Virus record (IMG/VR): IMGVR_UViG_3300025853_000325
Coordinates: 1-33,988 of that record
DNA length: 33,988 nucleotides
Source: a virus
Direction: 5' to 3' (one strand)
Below the pieces are notes generated by a model. That model was not told the origin of the DNA. It made no database searches and saw only the letters and a program-made list of their open reading frames with translations. A program made the position numbers and the translations under genes. Shown one piece after another: positions 2,797 to 33,988 of this stretch. The first letter of the stretch is position 1. Each line of letters begins with the position of its first letter.

Positions 2797-4656
2797 ATGG
2801 AGTTATCAAACAAAATTTTATCAGACATTACGGTGTATATGAAATACGCCAAATATCTCCCAAAAGAAAATAGAAGGGAGACATGGGAAGAGTTAGTAAC
2901 TAGAAATAAAGAAATGCACCAAAGAAAATATCCTAAGATTAAGGATGAAATTGAAGAGGTGTATAAGATGGTATATGATAAGAAAATTTTACCATCTATG
3001 AGAAGTTTACAGTTTGGTGGTAAACCGATAGAGATTTCACCTAATAGGGTTTATAATTGCGCATATTTACCTATTGATCATGTTGACGCATTTTCAGAAA
3101 CAATGTTTTTATTATTAGGTGGTACAGGCGTAGGGTTTTCAGTACAGAGACATCACGTTGAGTCTTTACCTGACATTAAGAAACCAAACCCAAATAGAAG
3201 TCGAAGATATCTAATAGGTGATTCTATTGAAGGATGGGCAGACGCAATTAAAGTATTGGTAGAGTCTTATTTCGGTGTTAAATCATCTACACCTATATTT
3301 GACTTTTCAGATATTAGACAAAAAGGTGCGTTGTTGGTTACTTCAGGTGGTAAAGCACCGGGACCTCAACCACTAAAAGATTGTATTCATAATATTAAAA
3401 AGGTATTAGATGCAAAATCAGATGGAGATAAACTTACACCTATTGAGACACATGATATTATATGTCATATTGCAGACGCAGTTTTAGCGGGTGGTATCCG
3501 TAGAGCGGCGTTGATTAGTTTATTTAGTGCAGATGATGATGAAATGATTTCTTGTAAGTCAGGTGCGTGGTGGGAACTTAACCCACAAAGAGGTAGAGCT
3601 AACAATTCAGCGGTATTACTAAGACATAAAGTAACTAAAGAGTTTTTCTTAGATTTATGGAAAAGAATTGAACTAAGTGGTGCAGGTGAACCAGGAATTT
3701 ATTTCTCTAATGATAAAGATTGGGGTACTAATCCATGTTGTGAGATAGGTTTACGACCTTATCAGTTCTGTAACCTATGTGAAGTAAATGCTTCAGATAT
3801 AGAGTCACAAGAAGACTTTGAAAAAAGAGTTAAAGGTGCAGCGTTTATTGGAACATTACAAGCGGGTTACACAGACTTCCATTATCTTAGAGATGTGTGG
3901 AAAAGAACTACACAAAAAGACGCATTAATCGGTGTAGGGATGACAGGTATCGGATCAGGTGTAGTATTAGGTTATGATATGAAATCTGCAGCGAAAGCGG
4001 TTAAAGAAGAAAATCAAAGAGTTGCTAAGTTGATAGGTATTAATAAAGCTGCTAGAACAACTACAGTTAAACCATCGGGTACGTCATCTTTAGTTTTAGG
4101 GACATCTTCTGGAATTCATGCGTGGCATAATGATTATTATATCAGAAGAATCAGAGTTGGTAAGAATGAAGCAATTTACACTTATTTATCTATTAACCAT
4201 CCAGAATTGGTTGAGGACGAGATTTTCCGTCCACACGATACTGCGGTTATATCTATCCCACAAAAAGCACCTGAAGGTTCTATTTTAAGATATGAGTCAC
4301 CTTTTGAATTGTTAGAGAGAGTTAAAAAGGTTTCTAAAGAGTGGATTAAGTTTGGACACAGAGGTGGACAAAACACACATAACGTATCTGCAACAATTTC
4401 TTTAAAAGAGGAAGATTGGGAACTTGCGGGGGAATGGATGTGGAATAATAGAGAACATTATAATGGTTTATCAGTTTTACCTTATAATGGGGGGACATAC
4501 CAACAGGCCCCGTTTGAAGATTGTGATGAAGAAACATATAACACAATGATGAATTCATTAACTAGCGTTGATTTAACTAAGGTTATCGAATTACAAGATA
4601 ATACTAACCTATCTGGAGAAGTTGCTTGCGCTAACGGATCTTGCGAAGTTATTTAA
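2797..4656 (+). CDS. nrdJ: Class II adenosylcobalamin-dependent ribonucleotide reductase, monomeric type
   Basis: This enzyme reduces ribonucleotides to deoxyribonucleotides for phage DNA synthesis. Expected catalytic features are present: an N-terminal Cys in NRVYNCAYL (C88), the radical-site motif NPCCE (C314 and E316), the second disulfide candidates in FCNLCEVN (C325/C328), and VKPSGTSSLVLGTSSGIH (424-441), the conserved phosphate/substrate region. The C-terminus CANGSCEVI holds a CX4C pair (C611/C616), the swinging reductant pair of the Lactobacillus leichmannii RTPR type. The enzyme has 619 residues against about 739 for that model, so it is compact. No NrdB-like subunit follows, which supports class II. 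B12 would have to come from the host. The class assignment is from motifs and overall resemblance. Confidence 0.88.
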   Translation: MELSNKILSDITVYMKYAKYLPKENRRETWEELVTRNKEMHQRKYPKIKDEIEEVYKMVYDKKILPSMRSLQFGGKPIEISPNRVYNCAYLPIDHVDAFSETMFLLLGGTGVGFSVQRHHVESLPDIKKPNPNRSRRYLIGDSIEGWADAIKVLVESYFGVKSSTPIFDFSDIRQKGALLVTSGGKAPGPQPLKDCIHNIKKVLDAKSDGDKLTPIETHDIICHIADAVLAGGIRRAALISLFSADDDEMISCKSGAWWELNPQRGRANNSAVLLRHKVTKEFFLDLWKRIELSGAGEPGIYFSNDKDWGTNPCCEIGLRPYQFCNLCEVNASDIESQEDFEKRVKGAAFIGTLQAGYTDFHYLRDVWKRTTQKDALIGVGMTGIGSGVVLGYDMKSAAKAVKEENQRVAKLIGINKAARTTTVKPSGTSSLVLGTSSGIHAWHNDYYIRRIRVGKNEAIYTYLSINHPELVEDEIFRPHDTAVISIPQKAPEGSILRYESPFELLERVKKVSKEWIKFGHRGGQNTHNVSATISLKEEDWELAGEWMWNNREHYNGLSVLPYNGGTYQQAPFEDCDEETYNTMMNSLTSVDLTKVIELQDNTNLSGEVACANGSCEVI

Positions 4657-5735: not shown

Positions 5736-6119
5736 ATGGCAAAGACTAGATATATAAATATTGATTTCCCTTTTAAAGATAGTAAAAAAGGTTTTTATTT
5801 TGAACTAAATCAAACTGATCGAGATGCAATTAGGGCAGATTTATTACATTTATTATTAACTAATAAAGGTGATAGGTTATATTTACCTGATTTCGGCAGT
5901 GATTTAAGAAAGTTCATATTTGAACCTAATGATAGTATAACACACGATGATATTAAAAAAAGTTTGAACGATAGTATATCTAGATATATACCTAATTTAA
6001 TAGTTAATAGTATTAATTTTAGGAACGATGACATAGAAGAATTAATAATTGTAGAATTAACTTATACTGTGACAGATGGAACATTCCAAAGTTCCGATAC
6101 AGTAACATTAACATTTTAA
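5736..6119 (+). CDS. 25: Baseplate wedge protein, T4 gp25-like (GPW/gp25 family)
   Basis: This 127-residue protein matches the length and layout of T4 gp25 (132 residues). Diagnostic segments are the DRDAIRADLLHLLLTNKGDR region (28-47), then LYLPDFGSDLRKFIFEPND (48-66), which corresponds to the conserved R/P-FGS-L...FEP core of the gp25/GPW family. The C-terminal half ends in beta strands. gp25 joins the baseplate wedge to the sheath and nucleates sheath assembly. It is followed three bases later by the gp6 homologue; gp25-gp6 adjacency is typical of contractile tails. The start has no Shine-Dalgarno sequence. Confidence 0.93.
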   Translation: MAKTRYINIDFPFKDSKKGFYFELNQTDRDAIRADLLHLLLTNKGDRLYLPDFGSDLRKFIFEPNDSITHDDIKKSLNDSISRYIPNLIVNSINFRNDDIEELIIVELTYTVTDGTFQSSDTVTLTF

Positions 6120-6122
6120 AGT

Positions 6123-7952
6123 ATGGCGAAAAAGATAGATTATAATGCTAGGAATTTCTCAGATGTTAGACAACAACTTGTAGAGTTCATTAAAAAATAT
6201 TATCCAGAAACGTTTTCAGATTTTAACGATGCATCAGTAGGTATGATGTTATTAGAATTAAACGCTGCGGTAGGTGATATGTTAAGTTTCCATACTGATA
6301 GGATGTTTAATGAAACTCAGATTAATTATGCACAAGAGAGATCATCATTATTAGAATTGGCTAGGACGTTTGGTTTAAATATTCCAGGTAAAAGACCTAG
6401 TATTACTTTAGTAGATTGGACGGTTACTAATATACCAGTAAAGGGTGATACTTTTGATGAAAGTTACGCACCTAAAATATTAAAAGGTTCACAAGCATCA
6501 GGGGCGGGTAAAATATTTGAGTTGTTAGAGGATTGTGACTTCTCATCACCATTTGCAACAGGTGGGATACCTAATAGACTTATCATACCTAATATTGATG
6601 GTAATGGTATAATCCAAAGTTATTCACTTACTAAAAGAGAGATAATGTTAAATGGATTTACTAAAATATATAAAAAGACTTTAGGGGCTTCTGATTTTAA
6701 ACCATTTTTAGAGGTTATTTTACCTGAAGATAATGTATTGTCTATTGAAAATATTATAACTAAAGAAGGTACAAATTTAACTACCACACCTACGGAAGAA
6801 GAATTTAGCGACTTCGATTTAAATTGGTATGAAGTACCAGCATTGGCACAAGGTGAAGTTTACACTGTCGATGAAAATACTGTTTCAGACAATGAAGGTA
6901 TTGTAGTGGGTAAATGGAAAAACGCACCACAAAGATTTATTAAAGAATATACGGATAATGGTTTCTGTAAAATAACTTTTGGGGCTGGAGATGAAGATAT
7001 TTCAGAATTAAACGAATTTGTTGGTTGTAGAGGACAAATAGATAGAATTGGGAATATAGTTAACAACCTTTCTTTAGGTGAAATACCATCACCAAACAAT
7101 ACATTATATGTGAGATATAGAGTTGGTGGTGGTGAAGATACTAATATAGGTCCAAATACTATTAATGGGTTAGGTGTTATTAGTTCTGTTGTTAATGGAG
7201 ATGATGAAGATATAAATAGAGTTATAAGGAATAGTATTAGTGTTAATAATCCAATACCAGCGTTAGGGGGAAAAGAAGAACCTTCAATAGAAGAAATAAG
7301 AAATTTAGTAAAATACAATTTTTCCGCACAAGAAAGATGTGTTACGATAAAAGATTATCAAAGTAGAATACCTCTAATGCCTGGTAAATTTGGTGTACCA
7401 TTTAGGACTGGCGTTTGGGAAGAAAGAAATAAAATTAATGTTTCTATTTTAGCGTTAGATGCGAATGGTAAACTTACAACACAATCTACGTCAACGTTAA
7501 AACAAAATATTGCAGAATATTTAGCAGATTTTAGAATGATTAATGATTATGTAACCATCAAAAATGGTAAAGTATTTAATTTAGGTTTTGAAATAGATGT
7601 TTTTGCGGATAAGTCAGTACCTAAAGGAGATGTGATTAGTGGTGTTATTAATAGTGTTAAAAATTATTTCGATATCAACAGGTGGGATATGGGGGACAAT
7701 ATCTATATTTCTCAGTTGGTTGAAAATATCAATAATGTGGGAGGTGTATTAAACGTAACAGATTTAAGGGTATTTAACAAAGTTAATGAAAATGGTAAAT
7801 ATTCTTTAAATGAAATCGCTCAACCATATATTGATGAAGAAACAAGACAAATTGATCTTTTAGGTAGATATACATTATTTGGTGAACCTAATGGTATGTT
7901 TGAAATAAAATACCCTAATAAAGATATTAAAGTAACAATTTCTACTTCATAA
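6123..7952 (+). CDS. 6: Baseplate wedge protein, T4 gp6-like (Baseplate J)
   Basis: This 609-residue protein is comparable to T4 gp6 (660 residues). The N-terminus reads IDYNARNFSDVRQQLVEFIKK...FSDFNDASVGMMLLELNAAVGDMLSFHTDRMFNE. That is the classic opening of gp6/gpJ proteins, with the conserved DASVGMMLLELNAAVGD core near 37-53. The middle is beta-rich, with a conserved VRYRVGGGEDTNIGPNTI segment near 331-348, and the C-terminal third resembles the Baseplate-J C-terminal domain (GDVISGVINSVKNYFD near 505-520). gp6 forms the inner ring that ties six wedges together. The gp25 gene three bases upstream confirms the context. Confidence 0.92.
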   Translation: MAKKIDYNARNFSDVRQQLVEFIKKYYPETFSDFNDASVGMMLLELNAAVGDMLSFHTDRMFNETQINYAQERSSLLELARTFGLNIPGKRPSITLVDWTVTNIPVKGDTFDESYAPKILKGSQASGAGKIFELLEDCDFSSPFATGGIPNRLIIPNIDGNGIIQSYSLTKREIMLNGFTKIYKKTLGASDFKPFLEVILPEDNVLSIENIITKEGTNLTTTPTEEEFSDFDLNWYEVPALAQGEVYTVDENTVSDNEGIVVGKWKNAPQRFIKEYTDNGFCKITFGAGDEDISELNEFVGCRGQIDRIGNIVNNLSLGEIPSPNNTLYVRYRVGGGEDTNIGPNTINGLGVISSVVNGDDEDINRVIRNSISVNNPIPALGGKEEPSIEEIRNLVKYNFSAQERCVTIKDYQSRIPLMPGKFGVPFRTGVWEERNKINVSILALDANGKLTTQSTSTLKQNIAEYLADFRMINDYVTIKNGKVFNLGFEIDVFADKSVPKGDVISGVINSVKNYFDINRWDMGDNIYISQLVENINNVGGVLNVTDLRVFNKVNENGKYSLNEIAQPYIDEETRQIDLLGRYTLFGEPNGMFEIKYPNKDIKVTISTS

Positions 7953-20700: not shown

Positions 20701-21930
20701 CCAGAAATAGATACACAAGTTAACGATTCATATTATGATTTACAAAATCCAATTGGGGCAGTTTATAATTATTACTCTACTGAGATTTTTACAGATTGTT
20801 TTGAAGAGTCGGTTATAATTAAAGAAATTGTTAATAGTGACAATGGTAATAACATTGTAATACAACCAAACGCAATATTAGATGATCCTGACTTAATGAA
20901 TCCTTCTAATTGGCAGGTACAGGCAATTGATGAATATGGTAGAGTAAGTTTTGAACCTATTATATATGATAATAATTTTGTTTTAGATTGGTATAGTGAT
21001 CAACAACTAAGTGATCTTTATCAAGAAGTCGCAGAATTCTATGGTTATTCATTTGGTTATTTTACGGTGGACCCTAATAGTAATACTTTAATCCCATTCA
21101 CAGGTGACAATCCATATTCTACAAATCCTAACGTAGTGTTTAGTGCGGCAGTTGATCCAGATAGACTATCTTGTGATGTTATAAATAATGTTTCAGTTGT
21201 ATTTGGGAGTGAGAACTGGCAAGGATTTAAATTGCCAGAATTAGAAGATTGTAGTTGTACAATAGATTTCTCTTTTGATTATATGTTAAAATATGAGGCT
21301 AATAATCTAATACAATGTGCGGACAACATATCTTGTAATCCTGCAATTATACATGACAACACAATTAGTAATATTAATTGTTTGAATTTTGTTGCATTTA
21401 CAAATAGTGTAGATGAATCACAAACATTACAAGGTAATTTTAACGATAGACAAGATGTAACAGAAGAATATATTATTTGGCAAAACACTAATGTATTAGA
21501 ACCAAATATAGAATGTTGTAATGCATTGGGTGGTAACGTTGTATCAGTTACACAATGGGCATCCGTAAACCAAAATTGGGTTTCACAAATAAACACAACT
21601 TATGGAGAATTATTTAATAACCCTACACAAGATTTATTGGCGTCATTAAACTTTAATACGGCAGAAATATTACAATTCATTGAAAAATATAAAACTATTA
21701 AGGCGAATGTGGAGAATGAAATATCAGGATGTTTTAATTTAACTCTATTATTCCCAACTTGTGACATACAATATAATAATTATATAACAACACAAAGTGT
21801 ATGTAATTTAGAAGTACCATTAGAGTGTGGTATATGGTCTAAATTATTGACAGATTATAAGACATTAGAAAGTGCGATAATGAATGTTATTGGACAATAT
21901 AATTCATTATGTAGAGAAATAAATAAATGA
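17740..21930 (+). CDS. Giant (1396 aa) Cys-containing tail/baseplate protein
   Basis: This is a very large virion-type protein. It opens with NRIKIAGYAKRIFFNDNIEYRNFSPDLVGFQL (split around residue 20), a beta-rich N-terminal domain. At about 466-506 it has YRRLILNIAWLWKSKGSRKA followed by VEFLFRFIGAP. This resembles the KGTR...L...L.G motif of P2 gpI-type tail proteins, which bind the baseplate rim; the similarity is short and weak. The C-terminal half carries several double-cysteine modules: QCC at 806-807 with C828, ECC at 943-944 with C964, and ECC at 1259-1260. It overlaps the next gene by an ATGA junction. I infer a baseplate/tail-tip role. No enzyme motif was seen. Confidence 0.72.
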   Translation: MANNNRIKIAGYAKRIFFNDNIEYRNFSPDLVGFQLTSEGGTTLFTNGNFSISVNLDPKPNVLFTQGTKSKFFTLDDISTSGDTQSTIQSNVKAKLNIDITNPLSYIWYGSSSEMIRASLLDIQENWPAAIYVDNKVGSVTGNNITDYVYDISSDESTFKVNSNFFNNPYAIKYTEDSKYVATNSEENPLRNFTLKYGSYVIEHNGIVKNIKSITPATQKTNSELTLVVDGNPFPELTGIYIPQYSFLSNNVDASIPYFIKPNESEIEKFFSGLDDFQRTILNRNITPIYRAEIISSNYTDDGVLLTSKKVYDFPLMDDGYNLNFFDTFYIAYLTKLTKLGEGLDQTNTDIIFRKYTTEAINSFDTLPKADGEDLTLNGEKATKLVRIYGVEFDYVKKYINGIKFAHVVTYNKRNNLPDVLVKDLAFMLGLEPINFISDTSFSKLYLPSNGGGQFSGTSTNLTQEQIDVELYRRLILNIAWLWKSKGSRKAVEFLFRFIGAPESLVNFNEYIVVVDKPLDIEEIKRLLYIYTGEVDLSNIPYDDDGFPLPPVNGDLVISNFIDPETGEVVENGITDMYFQKAGGWYRETYGSNVLTVLNGNNPHVGPYDGGSEYLQYFSRCYIPNFDNEPTVVITADTIRQNYFVNYNYGIFNGIPTGTTFYTTQLTYNSNTNNYQPIDNCLNVNYSIIETPLQNDGKTTLQQAFAEAEAEYNAFLELIQKDSYLVYSPEWQIIKNNYELSLKNCLNEISTEDCDTNKTLEICLSEVEEETVEYSCENLTLQECLPFYYYTNEDGNKVSFDEFPQCCRSLDANYVSYVNEFGRLTEYCSASAPCVGKPIKSLDNGIIVWEFTNNTLPNNVFQLWNGQCVQVNDPQPNEQDFFDSLRSSGRYPEIQDVNSYADYVEYINQTQNITSLFREIFIFLDGDQCSGGISTTVISSPECCAYYGYDFQLVNDGKNEYIVCIEGNKLTKPELVSTDISLDGYTFPEIDTQVNDSYYDLQNPIGAVYNYYSTEIFTDCFEESVIIKEIVNSDNGNNIVIQPNAILDDPDLMNPSNWQVQAIDEYGRVSFEPIIYDNNFVLDWYSDQQLSDLYQEVAEFYGYSFGYFTVDPNSNTLIPFTGDNPYSTNPNVVFSAAVDPDRLSCDVINNVSVVFGSENWQGFKLPELEDCSCTIDFSFDYMLKYEANNLIQCADNISCNPAIIHDNTISNINCLNFVAFTNSVDESQTLQGNFNDRQDVTEEYIIWQNTNVLEPNIECCNALGGNVVSVTQWASVNQNWVSQINTTYGELFNNPTQDLLASLNFNTAEILQFIEKYKTIKANVENEISGCFNLTLLFPTCDIQYNNYITTQSVCNLEVPLECGIWSKLLTDYKTLESAIMNVIGQYNSLCREINK

Positions 21931-24900
21931 TGAGAAAAAATAAAACAGATATATCATTAGAAAAAGTTAATAATGTAAAATTATTTAACCGATTATCTGC
22001 GCAAATGGAGTCGGAATTGGATAAGTTAAGAGTTGAGGCGGGTGACTTATCTAAGGAGATTAATGCAATTGAAGAAACTATTAGTCAAAAGAACTCTGAT
22101 AATGTCATTATAGAAAAAGCACTAACCAACGTTGATAACCCATTAGATTGTACTGTTTATGAAAATAAACTAACTGAATTAAGAACATTTAATTACGCAA
22201 CATATTGTAACAATTTAGTTTATGGTGGGATTAATTTAAACGATGGTACTAAACAATCACAATATAACGATTGTATAAAAACTAAAACATTACAAAATCA
22301 AAAAGATGAAGTAATTTACTCACAATTATTAGAAGATTGTAGAAGTAAAAATAGAATAGAAACAGAATTAAAAAATGCAAAGTTTGAAAATAACACTGAA
22401 TTAGTTAATGAATTAGAGACACAATTATATGAGGTTAATCAAGATATTAATAGATTAACTACTGATTATAATAATACAGTTAGTTTTGATGAGTCGGTAC
22501 AAACATCTCAGTTAGAAAATAACGACACACAAAATACGATTAATAGAACTGCGGAGTTATTAAATGTGACAACTAAATCTATTACAGACGATTCTGGTAA
22601 TTTAACATTAACTGATTCACAAAAAATTACTTTAAATATAATTTATACTAAAAATAAATCACAGATAAGTAAATTATTTACAACACAAGAAGAAAAAAAT
22701 GCATTGTTTACTGAAAACCAATTTAAACAAAATAAAATAATTACAGATACTAAAGGAGAACAAAACTTATTAAAAATTGGTAACACTATCGCAAATTGGG
22801 TTATCGGTATCTTAGGTTTATACTCTATGTTAAAGGGTTATTTAGACCCTGAAACGGCAGGAGTTGTTATGGCAGCATTAAATGTAGGTGGTATTAAAGA
22901 TGATAATCCACCGCCACCACCACTAACTTTCGGTTGTGCTAGGAGTTTAGGTACATACGACTATGATTACGCAAATGGATTTAAATATTTAATAACTTCA
23001 CCTACGAATCCATCATTAACAACTGACCCATCATTAAGTATGGACCCTAGTTATTATACGTCTAGTTGGCAATTAGTGTCAAATAACCTTTACCAAAGAG
23101 GACCGTGTTTTGGGACTAGAAGTGAGATTGACGATCCTAATTCAGAAAATGGTTTAGGTGGGGATACAGATGATTTAAGTGTAGGGAATTTTGAACGACT
23201 ACCATCGGGGCCAGGAGGGTTAGGATTACCACCCGTTCCAGAACAACCACCTTGTTGGCCACCACCCTGCATTCCAGTAGATGTTGGTGATAGTACAGAC
23301 GATAAAAGATGTGAATTCAATAATCCGTCTTTATTTACTCAGTCACCCACAGGTGCATTATTATATAATGGAAAGGACATACCTTCAGAATGTTGTAACT
23401 CAAACACATTACCATTAATAGGACAATATAACTTTGTAGATGGAGAATGTATATTTACGAGTAATACTGTAGGTGGGGGTGATCCTGAAGTTATTGACAC
23501 TTGTTGTGATTTAGTTTCCTTACAATTATTACAAGATTCATTAGAAGAACTACAACAAGAGATACCTATTATTGAACAAAAAACTCAAGAATGTTATGAT
23601 AATTGGTATAACACATTGGTAGAAGATTATGAAGTTTATGAAGAAGAAAACAATAGTTATTTTGATTCATACTTAGATGACTTAAAAGTTAATTTTAAAT
23701 TATTTGTTAATAATACAAATGTTGATACACAGACAAATATAGATACAGGTTTAACTTATCTACCATATACACAAAGTGTGAACCCAATATGGGAGTGGGA
23801 TCCTACAAATGGATACACTGGAGTTATTTTAGAAGGAACAGAACAAGAGATTGCGGTAATTGAGGATGGTATATTTAACCACCTATCACAATTAAATGTA
23901 CCATATAATGGTGAGATGTTTGAACCAGCGTGGCAAACATTTAAGTTTACGATACCTGAGTGTGTATGTGACGATTTAAGAAGATTATACCCTAACAAAG
24001 AATTTTTCTTCTCTATAGAATTAGAGAATTATGAATGTTCATTATGTTTGTTAGTAGATAATATACAAGTAAATGTTTCTGATTGTCAAACAAATAGAAT
24101 ACTATCCATAAATGATTGTATGGTACCACAATTAAGTTGTGTCATAGATAATAAAAAATCTTGGGTTTATTACGATGATGGTGTGGTTAAACAAACAATT
24201 TACCCTAATGGGGATTGTAATACTGGTTCTACATCTAATTATGAAATAGTTAAATTAGGTGCACAACAAGAAAGACTATGGTTAGATTTAGAATATAGAT
24301 ATACTGATTATGATATTAACCATTCTGATTTAATATTAAATGTTAAAAATGCAACTTTCAGTATTGACCCTGCGAAGGCAATAGAATGTGATGTATTTAA
24401 TTATTGGAAAAATATCGATTGTGATAATTGTCCTACTAAATGTTTGGAGGATTCTAAAACTTTTGAAGATCAAGACGACTTCTTATTTCAAGATTGTAAT
24501 ACATACTTATTCGAAGATCAGTCTACAGAACATTCTGTAGTGTTTAGTGGTGAAGTATTAAGTAGTGGATACACATTATCATTTAACGATATAGTTACAA
24601 CTGGGTTAACATTTAGTTGTTCGACATATACTGATTCATTGACACAAAGTGTATTAAGTTTGAAGAATAAATTTTATGCATTGACTTCTGATTATATTGA
24701 GTCTTTAGATGCGACTTATTACCAACTATTGGAAAAAGGTGAATCATTAGATAATTTCTATATACAAGAAAACAATTGTGGTACTGATACTATAGTTATA
24801 AATGATAATAGTAGTTTAAATAATTTATTCGGTATCATTACTGAAAACTATGATGGTACAATTTCATTATTTGAAACTTATCTATATACAGGTTCTACAC

Positions 24901-26285
24901 CATATAGTGGTGGGGTACTATCTGAGGTGTTATCAGGAACGGGAGTAACTGCACAAACATTTAACCAAAAATTAAGTATTGATCAAGAATGTTGTGAATC
25001 ACTAAATGATTTATTAAATGGTGAAGGTGCAACTGGATTAGGTTTAGGTAAAAATTATCAATGGGATAGTAGTAATTGTTTTTGTACTTGGAAACCATTA
25101 GATGATTGTGATAAATGTAAGGGTGATTGTGAATATTGTGGACAGAAGAAAGAATGTGTTGATGGATTTGCAACGGGAGATACTTACAGTGTTTGTATTA
25201 ACCCATTAGACTATTTAGATATACAACCATCAGAAATTAATATTAAGGCGGTATTCGATCAATTAGTACAAACTAATTTAATTGATGTTAAGAGTAGACA
25301 AACAATTACTGATTATCCATTATTAAGGTTGTTCTATGAATTATACCTAAACGCAAGTAATTGTGGTAAAGACTTATCTGGTAAATATACATACGACACT
25401 ATGTTTGAGTTTATGGATAAGATTGGTGACTATTGGTTAGACTTATTAGAACAAGTTGTACCTGCAACTACTATATGGGAGGGGTGTGATAATTCTGGTA
25501 AGATATATAGAAATACTATTTTTGATAACAATAAGTTTAACTATAAGAGATATAGTTTGAATTTTATAGATGTTGAAGTTGATTGTCCATTATCTGCACA
25601 AACAGACTTTAGTATTGGTTCTGAAACTAAACATTCATTAGTAGAACAAAAACCTATATATCCATCAAGTCCTGAGATAACAAAACTTAAGACTAACATA
25701 TTAAATAAAGAGTTGGAGATTGCCCTACTTAAGAAACAAATTTCTGTAGAACAAAGTAAGTTATGTGCAATAAGACTACAAGATTTAGATACACCGAATT
25801 TACAAGATTTAATAGACGCACAACAAAGTCAAATTGATTTACTTAATAGTGAATTAGATAATTTAAATCAAGAGTTAATAAATTTAAATACACAATTAGA
25901 TGAATTAGAAAATGAATATCTACAACAACAACAAAATTATTATATGAACTTTATGAGTTGTAGTGGTATAACTCAAAACCTAATAAATGCACAAAATAAT
26001 TTATCTGGATTTACACAAGGTACTACTGCATATGAAACACAAAGAAACTTTATTGCGGGACTTAGAGATAAGTATACTAAATGTGTTAGAAAGGCGAATA
26101 CATTAGTAAGTGATTATAATACAGTGTTTATAACACAAATATATGACAGTAATGAATATGAGGGTAACGTAGAGATATTTGGTGATCCTGATTTTGATCC
26201 GCCAGAGTTTACAAAAACACTACCACCAACTCAGATATCTGGGTTCTATTATAACCAAGAATTAATACATAATTGTGAGAATTAA
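21927..26285 (+). CDS. Giant (1452 aa) coiled-coil, Cys-rich tail protein with hydrophobic segment
   Basis: The start overlaps the upstream stop (ATGA); a second ATG follows at 21930. Residues about 15-60 and 110-180 are coiled coil (for example LEKVNNVKLFNRLSAQMESE). Residues about 285-322 are hydrophobic (NWVIGILGLYSMLKGYL then AGVVMAALNVGG), and PPPPPL follows near 328. Cys modules appear at 489-508 (ECC...GEC), 526-527 (TCC) and 1022-1053 (ECC...CFC), with a zinc-finger-like CDKCKGDCEYCGQKKEC just after the last. A second long coiled coil runs near 1250-1335. The combination resembles an elongated tail or pilot-like protein that may meet the membrane, but no family was recognised. It shares its Cys modules with the gene upstream. 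Confidence 0.72.
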   Translation: MMRKNKTDISLEKVNNVKLFNRLSAQMESELDKLRVEAGDLSKEINAIEETISQKNSDNVIIEKALTNVDNPLDCTVYENKLTELRTFNYATYCNNLVYGGINLNDGTKQSQYNDCIKTKTLQNQKDEVIYSQLLEDCRSKNRIETELKNAKFENNTELVNELETQLYEVNQDINRLTTDYNNTVSFDESVQTSQLENNDTQNTINRTAELLNVTTKSITDDSGNLTLTDSQKITLNIIYTKNKSQISKLFTTQEEKNALFTENQFKQNKIITDTKGEQNLLKIGNTIANWVIGILGLYSMLKGYLDPETAGVVMAALNVGGIKDDNPPPPPLTFGCARSLGTYDYDYANGFKYLITSPTNPSLTTDPSLSMDPSYYTSSWQLVSNNLYQRGPCFGTRSEIDDPNSENGLGGDTDDLSVGNFERLPSGPGGLGLPPVPEQPPCWPPPCIPVDVGDSTDDKRCEFNNPSLFTQSPTGALLYNGKDIPSECCNSNTLPLIGQYNFVDGECIFTSNTVGGGDPEVIDTCCDLVSLQLLQDSLEELQQEIPIIEQKTQECYDNWYNTLVEDYEVYEEENNSYFDSYLDDLKVNFKLFVNNTNVDTQTNIDTGLTYLPYTQSVNPIWEWDPTNGYTGVILEGTEQEIAVIEDGIFNHLSQLNVPYNGEMFEPAWQTFKFTIPECVCDDLRRLYPNKEFFFSIELENYECSLCLLVDNIQVNVSDCQTNRILSINDCMVPQLSCVIDNKKSWVYYDDGVVKQTIYPNGDCNTGSTSNYEIVKLGAQQERLWLDLEYRYTDYDINHSDLILNVKNATFSIDPAKAIECDVFNYWKNIDCDNCPTKCLEDSKTFEDQDDFLFQDCNTYLFEDQSTEHSVVFSGEVLSSGYTLSFNDIVTTGLTFSCSTYTDSLTQSVLSLKNKFYALTSDYIESLDATYYQLLEKGESLDNFYIQENNCGTDTIVINDNSSLNNLFGIITENYDGTISLFETYLYTGSTPYSGGVLSEVLSGTGVTAQTFNQKLSIDQECCESLNDLLNGEGATGLGLGKNYQWDSSNCFCTWKPLDDCDKCKGDCEYCGQKKECVDGFATGDTYSVCINPLDYLDIQPSEINIKAVFDQLVQTNLIDVKSRQTITDYPLLRLFYELYLNASNCGKDLSGKYTYDTMFEFMDKIGDYWLDLLEQVVPATTIWEGCDNSGKIYRNTIFDNNKFNYKRYSLNFIDVEVDCPLSAQTDFSIGSETKHSLVEQKPIYPSSPEITKLKTNILNKELEIALLKKQISVEQSKLCAIRLQDLDTPNLQDLIDAQQSQIDLLNSELDNLNQELINLNTQLDELENEYLQQQQNYYMNFMSCSGITQNLINAQNNLSGFTQGTTAYETQRNFIAGLRDKYTKCVRKANTLVSDYNTVFITQIYDSNEYEGNVEIFGDPDFDPPEFTKTLPPTQISGFYYNQELIHNCEN

Positions 26286-26320: not shown

Positions 26321-27889
26321 ATGCCAAAACAAAGACTAACCGACAGACAACTAATTAGTGGTGTAACACTAACAGATTTACTACATTTTGTGGTAACTGG
26401 TGATACATCACAAAGTCCTGCAGGGTCATCTTATAAGGGTAGTGTTGAACAACTATTTAATGGATTTAGTTCCTATACTTGTAGTACACCACTTTTATTA
26501 GATACGGTTAATGCGTGTACTTCCGCAATAACGATCAATGGTAATGTAATTATTAATGGTTCTGCAACAACGATAAACACAGAAGTAATTCAATCAAAAG
26601 ATAATAACATTGTATTAAATTATAGTGGAACACATTTAACTGCGATAGGTGGTGGAATCACATTGGAAGACGGGCAAAGTAATGGTGTAGATTCTAGAAT
26701 TTATACAGATTCGAATGGTACTTGGTTGTTCGATCCTAATTTAAGTGCGTCCACAGGCACTATAAATGATTTTACTGCGAATACCATTTCAGTTACAACT
26801 ATTGGTAATTCTGGTGATTGTGTGAATGATTTATATGTATCAAACATACATTCTTGTTCTCCATTAAACATTAATCCGTTGGATGAAGGTAATATTTATT
26901 TCGGTTCAACAAGTGGTGTTACAATAGATTTGACTAAAAATAGGTTAGGTATTGGGACAAATACACCATCTGAGAAACTTGAAGTTGATGGTAATACAAT
27001 AATTAATGGTACACTTACATTACCAGCTGGTACAACGACAGATCCTTCTTTAATATTAACTGATGGTGGCACATTATTAACATCACCACAGATAGGTGCT
27101 TTTGAATTTTTAGGTACGTCACTTTATTTTACAGATTTTACTGGTGTTAGACGTAATATATTATTAGCACAGTCAGGATTTACGGCAGCAACAGTTAATG
27201 AGTTACAGGACACTGAGGTTAGCACCGTAAGTAGTGGGGAAACGTGGTATTATGATGGTGGTCTTTGGAGAAATACAAATATAATTTCTATAGATAATAA
27301 TAACGTTAAAGCCACAGTAGATGGTGACTTAGATGTTAGTGGTAATACAATAATTAATGGATCATTAAACATTGGGACAATATTAAGCGGCACACCAACA
27401 ATTAACTTAGGTTTAGATTCTAGTGGTAATGTTGTTACTGGTATATCAAGTACTGATTTCTATGTTACAGGTGGTACACTTAATAACAACTCTATTGAAA
27501 TTAACAGAAACGACTCTTCTAACATTTTTACAATTAGTGGTACTAGTGGTATTAATATAAATGAACCAGCAACAGGTATTTTCACTATAGAATCAACAGG
27601 TGGTGGAGGTGGTACAACACAAACCACTGGATTAACAATATCATTTACGTCTAAAGAAGTATATAATACTCCTACATCTCCCGGTACAGGTAATATTTCT
27701 GATGATTTAACTGGTTCACAATTAGGAATAGTTCAAAAAATATATCATAACTCAGGGTCAGTACCAACAGTTCCTGCAGGATGGGTGCTTTTAGGTGATG
27801 GTATATATTTTACCAGTCAATTAAACATAATCTACGCAGAGTGGGTTACAGGCACTCGTGTAGAATACTGGATAGTACAAGAACAATAA
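26321..27889 (+). CDS. Tail fibre protein, 522 aa
   Basis: The N-terminus, [20 protein letters not shown] (6-25), then [12 protein letters not shown], is a pattern I associate with tail fibres of Bacteroidota phages, probably the attachment end. The shaft is Gly/Thr/Asn-rich with repeated turns ([32 protein letters not shown]). It includes [18 protein letters not shown] near 208-225, a common segment of trimeric fibre shafts. The C-terminal 90 residues ([20 protein letters not shown], ending VEYWIVQEQ) look like a compact tip domain that could contact the receptor. The following adhesin gene starts three bases after its stop. No separate chaperone domain was seen. Confidence 0.82.
26990..27360 (+). 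repeat. 20-base direct repeat inside the fibre gene
   Basis: GGTAATACAATAATTAATGG occurs at 26990-27009 and again at 27341-27360, in the same reading frame (GNTIING). The repeat reflects duplicated shaft segments of the fibre and could support slippage or recombination. Confidence 0.8.
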
Positions 27890-27891
27890 TT

Positions 27892-29508
27892 ATGAGTACA
27901 AGTTACAGATATTTCATAAAGAAACCAATTGAATATTTTACTATAAGAGTAAGGTCAAATAACCCTGGATCTTCATCTAGTAATCAATTTAGATTTGCTG
28001 ATGCACTTGGGGTTTATGATGTAATAGCAAAAAACGAATCAACAGGTAATATACAAACATTTAGTAATCTCACCGACCAAGCTACTATAACGTTTGCAGA
28101 AGGAGCTGGAGATTATGAATTAAAAATTAGACCTAAAGGAAAAGATAATACAACTAGGTTTAGAAAACTAAGATTTGCTAATAGTGGTGATAGAAGAAAA
28201 TTATTAGAAATTAAAAACTGGGGTAATGTTAAATGGTCTGACATGACTCAGGCATTCAATGGGTGTACTAATTTAGAAATAACTGCTACTGACACACCAG
28301 ATTTGAGTGTTTGTGCCGATCTTCAACTTATGTTTCAAGATTGTACATTTAGTGGGTCAACCGCTAATTGGGATTGGGATGTTTCAAACATTACTAATAT
28401 GAATAGTATGTTTAGAAGTGCCACTAACTTTAATCAAGATATAGGTAACTGGGATGTGAGTAGTGTTACTACTATGATAGACATGTTTAATGGTGCAACT
28501 AACTTTAATCAAGATATAGGTAATTGGGTCACAAGTGGTGTTACCGATATGACAAGAATGTTTAGAAGTGCCACTAACTTTAATCAAGATATAGGTAACT
28601 GGGATGTGAGTAGTGTAACTAATATGGTAAATATGTTTCAGAATGCGTCCTCATTCAATCAAGACATAGGGAATTGGGATGTTAGTAGTGTAACTAATAT
28701 GGCAAATATGTTTCAGAATGCGCCCTCATTTAATCAATACATCGGTGGTTGGAATACAAGTAGTGCTACTGCTATGTCTGGTATGTTTAATGGTGCAACT
28801 AACTTTAATCAAGATATAGGTAGTTGGAATACAAGTGGTGTTATTACTATGGCGAGTATGTTTAATGGTGCAACTAATTTCAATCAAGATATAGGTAATT
28901 GGGATACAAGTAGTGTTACTGGTATGGCATTTATGTTTGGTAATGCAACTAACTTTAATCAAGATATAGGCAATTGGGATACAAGTAGTGTTACTGGTAT
29001 GGCATTAATGTTTAGAAGTGCAACTAACTTTAATCAAGATATAGGTAATTGGGTCACAAGTGGTGTTACTAATATGTCAAGTATGTTTCAAAATGCTACT
29101 AACTTTAATCAAGACATCGGTAGTTGGGACACAAGTAGTGTTATTAATATGTCAAGTATGTTTAATGGTGCAACTAACTTTAATCAAGATATAGGTAGTT
29201 GGGATACAAGTAGTGTAACTAATATGTCTTTTATGTTTGGTAATGCAACTAACTTTAATCAAGATATAGGTAACTGGGATGTTAGTAGTGTCAACAATTT
29301 TTTACTTTTTGGGTCAACCTTTACAGAATTAAGTTTTTCAGCCTCTAATTTAGATTCTATTTATAATAACTGGAGTTTACTAACAGTAAAACCTAATATA
29401 AATATATCTTTTGGTTCGGCTAAGTATAATTCAACAAGTCAAACAGGTAAAAATATTTTATTAAATTCACCAAATAACTGGACTATAACTGATGGTGGAC
29501 AGGTTTAA
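27892..29508 (+). CDS. Tail adhesin with BspA/DUF285-type 25-residue repeats
   Basis: This is a 538-residue protein. I chose the ATG at 27892 because it lies three bases after the upstream stop; an in-frame GTG at 27841 would overlap the fibre gene. Residues about 1-160 form a unique N-terminal part that ends in [17 protein letters not shown] and already resembles the repeat. Residues 162-461 contain twelve exact-length 25-residue units of the form W-D[23 protein letters not shown], the DUF285/BspA-like surface repeat known from bacterial and Mycoplasma-type surface proteins. A short non-repeat C-terminus ends the protein. The role is inferred to be cell-surface binding from the repeat class and the fibre neighbourhood. 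Confidence 0.85.
28375..29274 (+). repeat. Twelve tandem 75-bp coding repeats
   Basis: The tandem array has a strict 75-base period. The block AACTTTAATCAAGAT or a close variant starts at 28426 and recurs every 75 bases to 29251. Individual units differ at a few positions; units 4-6 are most divergent (SSFNQD, PSFNQY, SATAM). A partial thirteenth unit follows. Near-identical units make copy-number change by recombination likely. Confidence 0.95.
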
Positions 29509-29524
29509 AAAAAATGAATAAACT

Positions 29525-29722
29525 ATGTATAGTTTAAAATATATAAATGAAAATATTTGGTGGATAATCCCATCAAACGGACATTATGGTGTATTATTAG
29601 AAGGACAACTAGTTACTTCAAATCATTTATTTGAACATTTTAATAATGAGGAAGAATGGTTAAACAGACTTGCTGAGTTAGAAATAACAGTTAGTGACAA
29701 TTTAGATTATGGCAGGAATTAG
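29525..29722 (+). CDS. Unknown 65-aa protein in the fibre block
   Basis: I do not recognise this protein. It is small, aromatic-rich (NIWWIIPSNGHYGVLLEG, about 10-27) and ends with an acidic helix (NNEEEWLNRLAEL). Its 3' end overlaps the next gene by 14 bases, which argues for a real, coupled gene. It lies between two host-recognition genes, a usual place for small fibre-assembly helpers, but no such family was recognised. The context ACTATG at the start has no Shine-Dalgarno sequence, as elsewhere here. Confidence 0.65.
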   Translation: MYSLKYINENIWWIIPSNGHYGVLLEGQLVTSNHLFEHFNNEEEWLNRLAELEITVSDNLDYGRN

Positions 29723-32615
29723 AGGTAAAATAGTAAATCCAATATCGATAGGTGGTGAAGTAATAACTGAAATTGAGTCACCTATTAATTTAAATATTGG
29801 TACTGATATGAATTATCAGGCATCCTCTACGTCCACATTTTTAAAAACAGAAAAATCGTTATTCCTACCTACAGACTTATCTAAAATAGATGATATATTT
29901 TTATTATCGAAACCTGATAAATATGGACAATCCATATTTAGAAATAGATTAACAGAAAAAACAATACCATTAAATTTTTCAGGTAATGTAAGTGACTCAA
30001 ATTCTGAGGTAGAAATTACTGAGAACAATGAAATACTTTATATAGATAATGGTAAAAAATATCAATTATTATCTAGTAGAAATGAAAGTAACAACTATGG
30101 TTGGGAACCTGTAAGTAATAGGGCGAAATATAATCATATAGAAAGATCGGACTTTGATAGTTTTGATTTTCCACAAGTTACAATAAGAGGTGTTAGAAAG
30201 ATTCCTGCAACTACTGCAGATACTTTATGTGGTCCTGTGACATATACAGGAGAGACATATGATAGAATGAATTACAATTGGTTCTTTGGTAAAAATTCTG
30301 GAATATCTTTTAACCCAATACAAAGTGGTGGGACACCAGTTATATTAAGTGGGGCGATGGAATCACAAGAAGGTGTTGCATCAATATCTAACAGAGAAGG
30401 ACAACTATTATTTTATACAAATGGGGAAACAGTATACACTAGTGGAAATACAATTATGACTAACGGTACAGGGTTATCTAGTTCGGGAACCTCAACGCAA
30501 TCAGTTGTTATTGTCCCTAAACCAGAGTCCAATAAGTATTATTTGTTTACAACAGATTACAACGGAAGTCCTAATGGTTTTGAATATTCTATAGTTAATA
30601 TGGAACTACAAAATGGTGATGGAGAAGTAGAAACAAAAAACATTAAACTTATCAATTCACCATTAACTGAAAAAGTTACTGCGTGTAGTAATACATCTGA
30701 AGACTCTTATTGGATTATAACTCATACAAGTGGCGATACATCATATTACACATATAAATTATCTTCTACGGGATTAAGTGGACCGATAATCACAAATATC
30801 GGTTCTACACACAATACTGCGAGAGGTTATATGAAAACATCTCCCGATTGTTCTAAATTAATATCTTTACTATATGATGAGGATATTATAGACATTTTTG
30901 ATTTTGATTCCACAGGTGGTACGTTAAGTAATTTTATATCACTAACGGGAATGACTTTTGATGTTGGGCCTTATGGTTTGGAGTTTTCTTCAGATTCTTC
31001 TAAGTTTTATGTTAGTGAAGGTGCGGGTGAAAAAGTATATCAGTTTGATTTAACTTATACCTCATCTACTGAAATGATAGATAACGTAATTGAGGTGGGT
31101 AATATTAGTGGGGCAAGTTTTGGGGCGTTACAATTAGCACCAGATGAGAGAATCTACCTTGCAGACTATAACAATACTAATTTACACATTATACATAGAC
31201 CTAATGGTTTGGGTGTACAATGTAATTTTGAAAGTGATGGGTTATCTTTAATTAATAATGGTATCACAGGTACATCATCATATTGGGGATTACCTAATAT
31301 AATAACAGATAAATCTATTTCTTGTGATAGGTCAGTATATATTGTACCTAAAAGTAGGACAGGATACTTATTTGACGTTTTAGTAAATAATGTTAATAAC
31401 GTAATAGAACCCAAAAAACTTTCATTATTCGGTGAAGTATATGGGTACGATCAAAGTATTAGTCAGTTTACTAAATCAGCATTATCCAACTTTACTATAG
31501 ACTATAAAGAGTTAACTGCCAATACTAACAATACTATATACGTACCTACATTGAATATAGGTGAGGGTGAATTCTTAATAAAAACTTATTGGAGTTACAA
31601 TGTTAATACTTTACTATCTAAGAAACAAAAAGTTATAAAAAATAGTATTGATACTTATAAAAGAGGTAACTTATATGGTTTATATGTACCTGAAACGGAT
31701 TGGTATTTCTTATCTCTATTTGAATCAGAAAAACCATTGTTTAATAGTTCCGTTGCACCACAACCACAAGATACTGGTAACTTAGTAGTACAAAGTAGAT
31801 TTACTGAAAGTGGGGTTACTGAATATATAGTAAATGGATTATCTGATCCAATAGTTTCATATAATGGTTCTGTTTTGGCTAAGAACATTGAATATAGTGC
31901 AGTTACCTCTGCTACTACACCATATATTAAGTTATTATTTAATCCATTACCTAATCAAGTTTTAACATATGCTTATGTTAATAATGGTGGTAGTAATGAT
32001 TTATTAGCAGATTTATATACAATATCTAGGACAATAGAAAGCGGTGCAACTGGTACCCAATTATCTACTGATAGAGTATTTTATAATACCACACAAAATA
32101 GATATGAATTTTATTTAACTAGTGTTCCTAATAGTGATGTTGTTTTATCTTTAAATGGTACAATATTAAGTAAAGATATTGAATATTACTTATCTATATC
32201 TGATAGTAGAAGAATTATATTTGAAGATGATTTAGTTGTTGGTGATATAATAGAAGCGTTTTATGTTCCCACCGCTGCGATAAATGGGTTAGTACCTAAT
32301 AATACACCCACAATTAGTTGGTCTATCAACGATGCACCAACACAAACATTTGGTAGGTTTACAATAGAAGTGACTGATCCTAGTGACGAATTTTTTGAAT
32401 CAATAGAATACAGTTTTATTGTCGATTATATTATAGGACAAAAAACATATAGTAATACTATAACATTGACAAATGCGGTTGCAGGTGATAAATTTATATA
32501 TAGGGTTAAAAATGAAAAATTTTATACCCCTATTATTGGTGAAACTATTTATAGTGTAAACTATAGTGATGTAAATGAAATAGAAATACAATTTAATAGT
32601 GGACAATCATATTAA
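29709..32615 (+). CDS. Virion protein (968 aa) with a gliding-motility-type beta-propeller
   Basis: Residues 1-180 are a phage-type N-terminal part. Residues about 188-532 match, in order, the beta-propeller that opens secreted Bacteroidota gliding-motility-associated (type IX secretion) proteins: NWFFGKNSGISFNP, EGVASISNREGQLLFYTNGE, TQSVVIVPKPESNKYYLFTT, EKVTACSN, YWIITHTSGD, ARGYMKTSPDCSKLIS, FDFDSTGGTLSNF, YGLEFSSDSSKFYVSEGAG, VYQFDL, GALQLAPDERIYLADYNN and YWGLPN. There is no signal peptide or sorting domain, so it is not secreted like the host proteins. Residues about 706-765 and 799-856 form two related beta units. Its start lies inside the 65-aa gene. I infer a tail-tip or fibre protein that borrowed a host surface domain. 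Confidence 0.82.
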   Translation: MAGIRGKIVNPISIGGEVITEIESPINLNIGTDMNYQASSTSTFLKTEKSLFLPTDLSKIDDIFLLSKPDKYGQSIFRNRLTEKTIPLNFSGNVSDSNSEVEITENNEILYIDNGKKYQLLSSRNESNNYGWEPVSNRAKYNHIERSDFDSFDFPQVTIRGVRKIPATTADTLCGPVTYTGETYDRMNYNWFFGKNSGISFNPIQSGGTPVILSGAMESQEGVASISNREGQLLFYTNGETVYTSGNTIMTNGTGLSSSGTSTQSVVIVPKPESNKYYLFTTDYNGSPNGFEYSIVNMELQNGDGEVETKNIKLINSPLTEKVTACSNTSEDSYWIITHTSGDTSYYTYKLSSTGLSGPIITNIGSTHNTARGYMKTSPDCSKLISLLYDEDIIDIFDFDSTGGTLSNFISLTGMTFDVGPYGLEFSSDSSKFYVSEGAGEKVYQFDLTYTSSTEMIDNVIEVGNISGASFGALQLAPDERIYLADYNNTNLHIIHRPNGLGVQCNFESDGLSLINNGITGTSSYWGLPNIITDKSISCDRSVYIVPKSRTGYLFDVLVNNVNNVIEPKKLSLFGEVYGYDQSISQFTKSALSNFTIDYKELTANTNNTIYVPTLNIGEGEFLIKTYWSYNVNTLLSKKQKVIKNSIDTYKRGNLYGLYVPETDWYFLSLFESEKPLFNSSVAPQPQDTGNLVVQSRFTESGVTEYIVNGLSDPIVSYNGSVLAKNIEYSAVTSATTPYIKLLFNPLPNQVLTYAYVNNGGSNDLLADLYTISRTIESGATGTQLSTDRVFYNTTQNRYEFYLTSVPNSDVVLSLNGTILSKDIEYYLSISDSRRIIFEDDLVVGDIIEAFYVPTAAINGLVPNNTPTISWSINDAPTQTFGRFTIEVTDPSDEFFESIEYSFIVDYIIGQKTYSNTITLTNAVAGDKFIYRVKNEKFYTPIIGETIYSVNYSDVNEIEIQFNSGQSY
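31821..32275 (+). repeat. Diverged internal duplication in the 968-aa protein
   Basis: Two copies of a beta unit lie at about 31821-31990 and 32104-32275. Shared positions include V-S-Y-N-G-S-V-L-A-K-N-I-E-Y in the first and L-S-L-N-G-T-I-L-S-K-D-I-E-Y in the second, then a strand ending YAYV or AFYV. The similarity is at protein level, with little DNA identity. Boundaries are approximate. Confidence 0.6.
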
Positions 32616-32657: not shown

Positions 32658-33988
32658 ATGAGTTACATTAATAAACAAGATACTACCTTAGTAAGAGTTA
32701 AACTAACTGATATAGGTAGAGAACAATTAGCAAAAGGACAATTAACCTTTACTAATTATATGATTGGCGATTCAGAAGTCGACTATAATTATGTTAAAGG
32801 ATGGAGTGAATTTGTACCCAACGAAGGTGCAACGACAGGAGAATTTTGGTTTCCTGAGGCGGACGGTAATATAGTTAAAAAAATATTCTCAAAAGTATTA
32901 AGGCCAAAAGACGATAACCCATTCTTTTCTTCATTCCTTTTAAATCAAAGTAACCAATTCATATTTCCTCTAAATCAACAAAGTAATATACAATTAATTA
33001 AAGGTGTAGTTACTAATGAAGCGGATGACAGAGGATTCTTTTCAGGATCCACAGTAGATACAGGATTAATACCACAAACAGGAACAGATTTCATTAAAGA
33101 AACTGGGACAATAGATTTAGTTAATTTTGATGGTTCTATAGATGTTACTACTTTCACACAAGGTGTGTTATCAGGTATTACATTAACTAACACAGAAGTT
33201 AATGATTATATTATATTTAGATTTACAAACCCAACATTAGGTAGTCAAACAGGAACTACAATGACTGCGGCGACAATAAATACTACATATAATATTACAT
33301 CTATTAGTGGTTCTACAATTAAAGTGGATAGAGTTTTACCAACGTTAAACGCATATTCGGGAACGGTAATTACATACTATACTTTACCTGGTGGTGATAA
33401 CCCTACAGATGATTACTATGGGACAAATTCATTGGCGGCGTATTGGAACACAGGTACATTATCATTTGATAGTAGTTGTGATATATGTAATGAAAATATT
33501 CCAGTGTGGAATATGAATAATGTGTGGACAGAAAACCCTGCGGGACTTTACAAAGATTCTCCTGTTAATTATCACGAACATAATTTGTTTGGTTCAGAAC
33601 AATTTACAGGTTCTAAACAATATTTAGGATATAATGAAAATTTAGTTTGTAACACAAATGATGCAACATCAATATGTGGTACTGATCAACCTATAAGTTA
33701 TATTGATCCTTATAAGAAATCAATATCTATTTTACATTATTCTAATAGTTGTATATCGAATTTCTACGGAGAACAATTCTATATTGATGAGGAAACAGGT
33801 AAATTATTGAATTTAGATATGCCTGTTATGTGGCACAGAAGAAATGATGTAGGTACTGCGAGTGGTACTACATTAGGTATGAGATTTACTTCAGATACAA
33901 TTAAGAAAACATTGTCATCTAATAATGATGTTGAGTATTATGATTTAATTGAATATAGTGGTATGTCGGTGACACCTACAATGCCATT
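32658..33988 (+). CDS. Large virion-type protein, 3' end outside the window
   Basis: The frame stays open from the ATG at 32658 to the right edge, giving 443 residues without a stop. The N-terminus reads LVRVKLTDIGREQLAKGQLT (11-30), then NYMIGDSEVDYNYV (33-46), a pattern I associate with large structural proteins of related phages without a firm family name. The middle is Thr/Ser/Gly-rich and beta-like, with a SSCDICNENIPVWNMNNVW segment near 274-292 and scattered cysteines later. It follows the 968-aa propeller gene and has its own Shine-Dalgarno-like site. A tail or capsid-surface role is inferred from position. Confidence 0.75.
   Translation, partial: MSYINKQDTTLVRVKLTDIGREQLAKGQLTFTNYMIGDSEVDYNYVKGWSEFVPNEGATTGEFWFPEADGNIVKKIFSKVLRPKDDNPFFSSFLLNQSNQFIFPLNQQSNIQLIKGVVTNEADDRGFFSGSTVDTGLIPQTGTDFIKETGTIDLVNFDGSIDVTTFTQGVLSGITLTNTEVNDYIIFRFTNPTLGSQTGTTMTAATINTTYNITSISGSTIKVDRVLPTLNAYSGTVITYYTLPGGDNPTDDYYGTNSLAAYWNTGTLSFDSSCDICNENIPVWNMNNVWTENPAGLYKDSPVNYHEHNLFGSEQFTGSKQYLGYNENLVCNTNDATSICGTDQPISYIDPYKKSISILHYSNSCISNFYGEQFYIDEETGKLLNLDMPVMWHRRNDVGTASGTTLGMRFTSDTIKKTLSSNNDVEYYDLIEYSGMSVTPTMP

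Follow-up and report, generated by a model that had tools for sequence, protein, structure and literature searches.

A 968-residue protein of the virus record IMGVR_UViG_3300025853_000325, analysed over its whole length of 33,988 nucleotides (hereafter the window), contains an internal seven-bladed β-propeller that is homologous to the N-terminal domain of secreted Bacteroidota proteins exported by the type IX secretion system (T9SS). The proposal of the first-pass annotation that a host surface domain had been captured into a phage protein gains support from this homology, from the missing export signals and from the behavior of the domain as a module in an insertion hot spot; capture and reuse of a host domain is well supported, while a role for the propeller in adsorption is plausible, and the proposal as a whole is thus partly supported. 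Accordingly, we favor, with moderate confidence, a reading in which a propeller of T9SS cargo was captured, probably once, from a host, came to lie in a hot spot of a tail-region protein and would be displayed on the virion as a conserved contact with the cell surface.

The named motifs of the propeller were found in the 968-aa ORF, which can be divided into an N-terminal part, the propeller and a C-terminal part (Table 1). Scans of the whole protein against Pfam, PHROG and NCBIfam (the latter at E<=1) gave no match; lacking a PHROG match, the protein was assigned to no named tail-protein family. A single-sequence scan of viral contigs recovered 16 close relatives with 59-95% identity, nearly all of which are whole ORFs of 952-971 aa with the propeller at the equivalent position, the exceptions being one of 1052 aa and one with an apparently later start. 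No match was found among deposited phages in tblastn searches with the whole protein, the propeller, a minimal relative or the downstream neighbor. A bacterial contig or a misassembly was ruled out as the source of the arrangement, as the same architecture is repeated in 29 other contigs.

Table 1. Coordinates in the window of the propeller-bearing ORF, its parts and its genomic neighbors
Feature	Position	Strand	Remarks
Baseplate wedge genes (gp25-like; gp6/gpJ-like)	5736..7952	+	Upstream of the 968-aa ORF
Conserved upstream neighbor, 1452 aa, no assigned function	21927..26285	+	Synteny
Variable cassette: fibre-like ORF, then DUF285/BspA-repeat ORF	26321..29508	+	Directly upstream of the 968-aa ORF
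Tail-region protein with propeller, 968 aa	29709..32615	+	Architecture repeated in 20 contigs and 9 further contigs
N-part, residues 1-188	29709..30272	+	20 loci, every one on a propeller-bearing contig
Stub counterpart, residues 135-168	30111..30212	+	Left edge of insertion site; hhalign score 30.8
Seven-bladed propeller, residues 189-533	30273..31307	+	Homologous to N-terminal domain of Bacteroidota T9SS cargo
C-part, residues 534-968	31308..32612	+	Phage family, with and without propeller
Conserved downstream neighbor	32658..33986	+	ORF runs past the window end; about 711-747 aa in relatives

The propeller, which had been delimited initially as residues about 188-532 and likened to a Bacteroidota domain, is indeed full-length homologous, as residues 189-533, to the N-terminal domains of secreted Bacteroidota proteins, with identities of up to 39% and E-values down to 9e-65. 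Full or near-full-length bacterial matches in tblastn span E-values of 9e-65 to 4e-20, and the best bacterial matches reach profile scores of 420-428 bits, values that chance would not produce. Scanning bacterial and archaeal genomes with a profile yielded 13 loci, 12 of which are Bacteroidota proteins; the thirteenth (L018) is 75% identical and runs on into the phage C-part, on a contig that is phage-like and belongs to a Flavobacteriales MAG. The profile search thus finds widespread bacterial homologues rather than phage proteins alone: at a threshold of E<=1e-10 the domain is present in 67 of 395 sampled genomes of the Bacteroidota phylum, with up to 17 matches, partial ones included, in a single genome. 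The layout of nearly all bacterial versions is a hydrophobic leader, then the propeller and usually further domains. By a crude hydropathy test, a hydrophobic leader immediately precedes the propeller in 53 of 54 bacterial cases, as against none of the 20 phage proteins. T9SS sorting domains were detected in 27 of 30 scanned bacterial proteins (type A in 15, type B in 12), the remaining three (L135, L142, L144) being stand-alone secreted propellers that end shortly after the propeller. The family is therefore T9SS cargo in general and broader than gliding-motility proteins: the earlier description of the domain as gliding-motility-type holds in that its homologues are Bacteroidota surface proteins with T9SS domains, but is too narrow as to the family itself. 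To our knowledge, no function has been assigned to the propeller of bacterial T9SS cargo, which is apparently uncharacterized.

In comparison with T9SS type A and type B cargo (TIGR04183, TIGR04131), the window protein thus displays a full-length domain match at 26-39% identity and conserved residues in common. However, the cargo proteins combine a signal peptide, an N-terminal propeller and, usually, further domains and a sorting domain, whereas in the phage protein the domain is internal and both signals are lacking. The latter had been anticipated from the translation and agrees with the absence of an N-terminal signal peptide by the crude hydropathy test and of a T9SS type A or B sorting domain in the NCBIfam scan (E<=1).

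An AlphaFold2 (AF2) model built on an alignment of phage and bacterial propellers is a confident propeller (mean pLDDT 92.6, pTM 0.92), and a count of its strands gives seven blades, in agreement with the fold initially suspected. In the model the last strand completes the blade built by the first strands; a propeller that closes on itself in this way can be accommodated as a loop insert. For the full-length protein the mean pLDDT drops to 61, with the N-part not modelled and the C-part of only moderate quality, on account of which the C-part was matched to no known tail protein. Among solved structures, the best relative in a profile search of PDB sequences is the YVTN propeller of an archaeal surface-layer protein (1l0q, E 1.2e-11), which shares a cell-surface propeller fold, although the match covers only part of the profile and identity is low. 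Foldseek matched propellers of many kinds, lactonase-type ones included, at TM-scores of about 0.5. Propeller folds also occur in phage proteins of the predicted-structure library BFVD (e.g., A0A6J5SZJ1, A0A6J5R6I7 and A0A0N7GFD2), but these are only about 15% identical and may be unrelated to the T9SS-cargo propeller. Inspection of the alignments shows that in most blades a polar residue, placed at the innermost strand or immediately ahead of it, is common to phage and bacterial copies: E221, Q264, E321, K376, E425 and Q475 are present in 13 of 13 window-type phage copies and in 41-47 of 49 bacterial ones. This conservation pattern suggests retention of a shared pocket, although the residues may be structural instead.

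The flanks of the propeller bring out its modular nature. The C-part defines a family with 63 viral loci, of which 20 have the propeller and 43 do not, while the N-part is confined to the 20 loci with the propeller. More than half of the propeller-less loci (27 of 43) show a minimal form of 456-491 aa: a stub, with SGASKIDC or a similar sequence at its end, passes directly into the C-part. The other propeller-less loci have different inserts after the stub, giving totals of about 625-640, 747 or 898-914 aa, in addition to one fragment. Both edges of the insertion site can be recognized in the window protein: residues 135-168 align with the stub (SSDICVF..P...SGASKIDC) of the propeller-less relatives at an hhalign score of 30.8, whereas 300 column shuffles reached no more than 21.9, and the beginning of the C-part is matched by the residues downstream of the propeller (hhalign E 9.6e-15). 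As relatives lack the propeller or carry other inserts at the equivalent site, the propeller is best understood as a module in an insertion hot spot. Further, both flanking neighbors are conserved with or without the propeller, on account of which propeller-bearing and propeller-less proteins are positional counterparts. The C-part family, the relatives of the N-part and the synteny also bear out the view that both flanks are of phage type. The propeller-less and other-insert forms constitute natural controls for this case, in which a phage tail-region protein reuses a surface domain of the host.

The alternative inserts themselves (L051, L056, L057, L061, L073-L075, L082, L087) are very roughly 130-450 aa long and some are framed by cysteines; a Pfam scan of them gave nothing convincing, and any resemblance of some to PA14 is no more than an impression. 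One further protein, L200 (1218 aa), combines the N-part, the propeller, an additional insert of roughly 280 aa and the C-part.

In terms of genomic context, the 968-aa ORF belongs to a structural gene module with conserved neighbors and sits between the baseplate wedge genes and the replication genes, which are found further downstream in a 254-kb relative. The downstream neighbor adjoins the C-part gene in nearly all relatives, whether or not they have the propeller. A tail-sheath match was obtained in 8 of the 9 relatives searched, 4 of them above the curated cut-off, which identifies these as contractile-tailed phages. The placement next to tail fibres noted in the initial reading is right as to position, with the wedge genes upstream and the fibre-like/DUF285 cassette directly before the ORF. 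This cassette is missing at the equivalent place in the closest relatives L031-L033, and the first 35-47 residues of its fibre-like ORF are conserved and recur in propeller-less phages. The window additionally encodes a phage ribonucleotide reductase (2797-4656), which matches the class II (B12-dependent) insertion domain at a score barely above the curated cut-off.

In phylogenetic analysis the 17 window-type propellers form one clade (100/100) with a long stem, in a tree that is unrooted and in which the bacterial sister group is not settled; the window-type propeller was hence probably captured once, long ago. The tree of phage and bacterial copies envisaged at the outset establishes the monophyly of the phage clade without dating the transfer. 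A scan of viral contigs with the bacterial profile uncovered further copies in other contexts, including 17 contigs with signal-peptide propeller proteins, mostly of 370-490 aa (two are cut at contig ends), which form a separate clade (100/99). A topology joining both viral clades was not rejected (p-AU 0.216), and two independent phage captures were for this reason dropped as a claim. These relationships bear on the direction of transfer. It could be argued that a viral propeller lineage supplied the window protein, by reverse or virus-to-virus flow, and later spread to or within bacteria, given the second viral clade, whose proteins have signal peptides, the fact that one common viral clade is allowed (p-AU 0.22) and the lack of a rooting outgroup. 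However, the bacterial diversity is far deeper and wider and the bacterial copies form part of the T9SS cargo system, and we accordingly regard this scenario as very improbable.

Bacteroidota phages are already known to carry host-type surface domains; the present case is that of a host-derived module in a tail-region protein. No description of a phage tail protein with a T9SS-type propeller was found in the open-access literature. BACON-domain proteins of crAss-like phages (PMC6949934) likewise represent reuse of a Bacteroidetes-associated surface-type domain, in some cases near tail genes, and one BACON ORF also has a T9SS sorting domain; they differ in the domain itself, in its tandem repetition and in the phage group. 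The T9SS-CTD cargo genes of a cryoconite phage (PMC7468147) are comparable as host-type T9SS-related genes in a Bacteroidota phage, but their products have sorting domains, are presumably secreted and are not fused into a tail-region protein. In extracellular contractile injection systems (PMC12923769), modular tail fibres join receptor-binding modules that can be exchanged to an anchor that is conserved; some of the modules are β-propellers, and the modules were gained by horizontal transfer, although these are injection systems rather than phages and their anchor families are different. Additionally, PMC5682007, reporting earlier work, describes gldD and gldG mutants of F. johnsoniae as more phage-resistant, so that gliding/T9SS-dependent surface features matter to phages.

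In the reading that we prefer, a lineage of large contractile-tailed phages of Bacteroidota would have acquired its propeller, probably in a single event, from secreted T9SS cargo and inserted it into a protein of the baseplate/tail-fibre region, with a short N-terminal segment before it and the C-part after it. The host export signals would have been dropped since synthesis and assembly of such phage proteins take place in the cytoplasm. Most likely, the propeller would be displayed on the particle as a conserved contact with the Bacteroidota surface, be it a polysaccharide or a surface protein, while variable host-range recognition would be left to the adjoining fibre/DUF285 cassette. The patterns of conservation are relevant in this regard. 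Between the window protein and L016, identity is 41% in the N-part, 63% in the propeller and 53% in the C-part, and dN/dS is lowest in the propeller, with the values at high dS being rough; among closely related proteins, conservation of the N-part equals or exceeds that of the propeller. The rapid diversification expected of a receptor-binding tip is not seen in the propeller in either identity or dN/dS. That the propeller is usually the best-conserved segment, unlike a fast-evolving host-range tip, argues against such a tip. A bolder version, which we consider doubtful, has the phage particle carrying a working copy of a host gliding/T9SS surface domain and attaching via the partner by which the host's own protein is held or contacted on the cell, so that self-recognition of the host would serve as an anchor for adsorption, with the tail protein serving as a general slot for exchangeable modules.

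The main rival to a surface contact is a structural or scaffolding role, in which the captured propeller would act as a spacer or clamp, or as a site at which other tail proteins dock, and would not contribute to host binding. This would account for the purifying selection on the propeller and for its generally higher conservation than the other parts, for host-range variability seemingly residing in the neighboring cassette, and for the retention of the neighbors by propeller-less relatives, by which the module is dispensable to the base protein. However, the presence of unrelated inserts or none at this site in relatives better fits an outward-facing display loop, and the residues in common with the host copies have been retained; hence, we see a structural insert as unlikely, if still to be reckoned with. 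The lactonase-type propellers among the Foldseek matches and the conserved polar residues of the innermost strands, one in most blades, could alternatively be interpreted as signs of a lactonase- or lyase-like enzyme module directed at surface glycans. This appears quite improbable, as the TM-scores are low, no catalytic signature was recognized and no Pfam or NCBIfam enzyme model was matched; we also know of no activity in the bacterial homologues. Finally, the propeller might mimic a host surface protein to occupy its partner, thereby excluding rival phages or interfering with surface complexes of gliding or the T9SS, rather than adsorb. The homology to surface cargo, the retention of signal peptides in one phage clade and the T9SS-tagged cargo encoded by another Bacteroidota phage (PMC7468147) are compatible with this, but the window protein has no export signal and lies inside a structural gene module, making mimicry exceedingly improbable. 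If the propeller does bind as a surface contact, it would reveal what the widespread T9SS-cargo propeller recognizes and offer a handle on the attachment of large Bacteroidota phages.

The remaining viral copies are found in distinct settings. The contigs with signal-peptide propeller proteins (L165-L179, L207, L208) are viral and up to 261 kb in length. In L165 and L168 the propeller protein is followed by two more signal-peptide ORFs, the last of which ends, by eye, in a T9SS type B-like manner, and this run of genes gives the impression of a suite of secreted surface proteins encoded by the phage. Distant propeller-like matches also occur in phage proteins of 1596 to at least 2855 aa (L215-L217, L212-L214), some of which are cysteine-rich.
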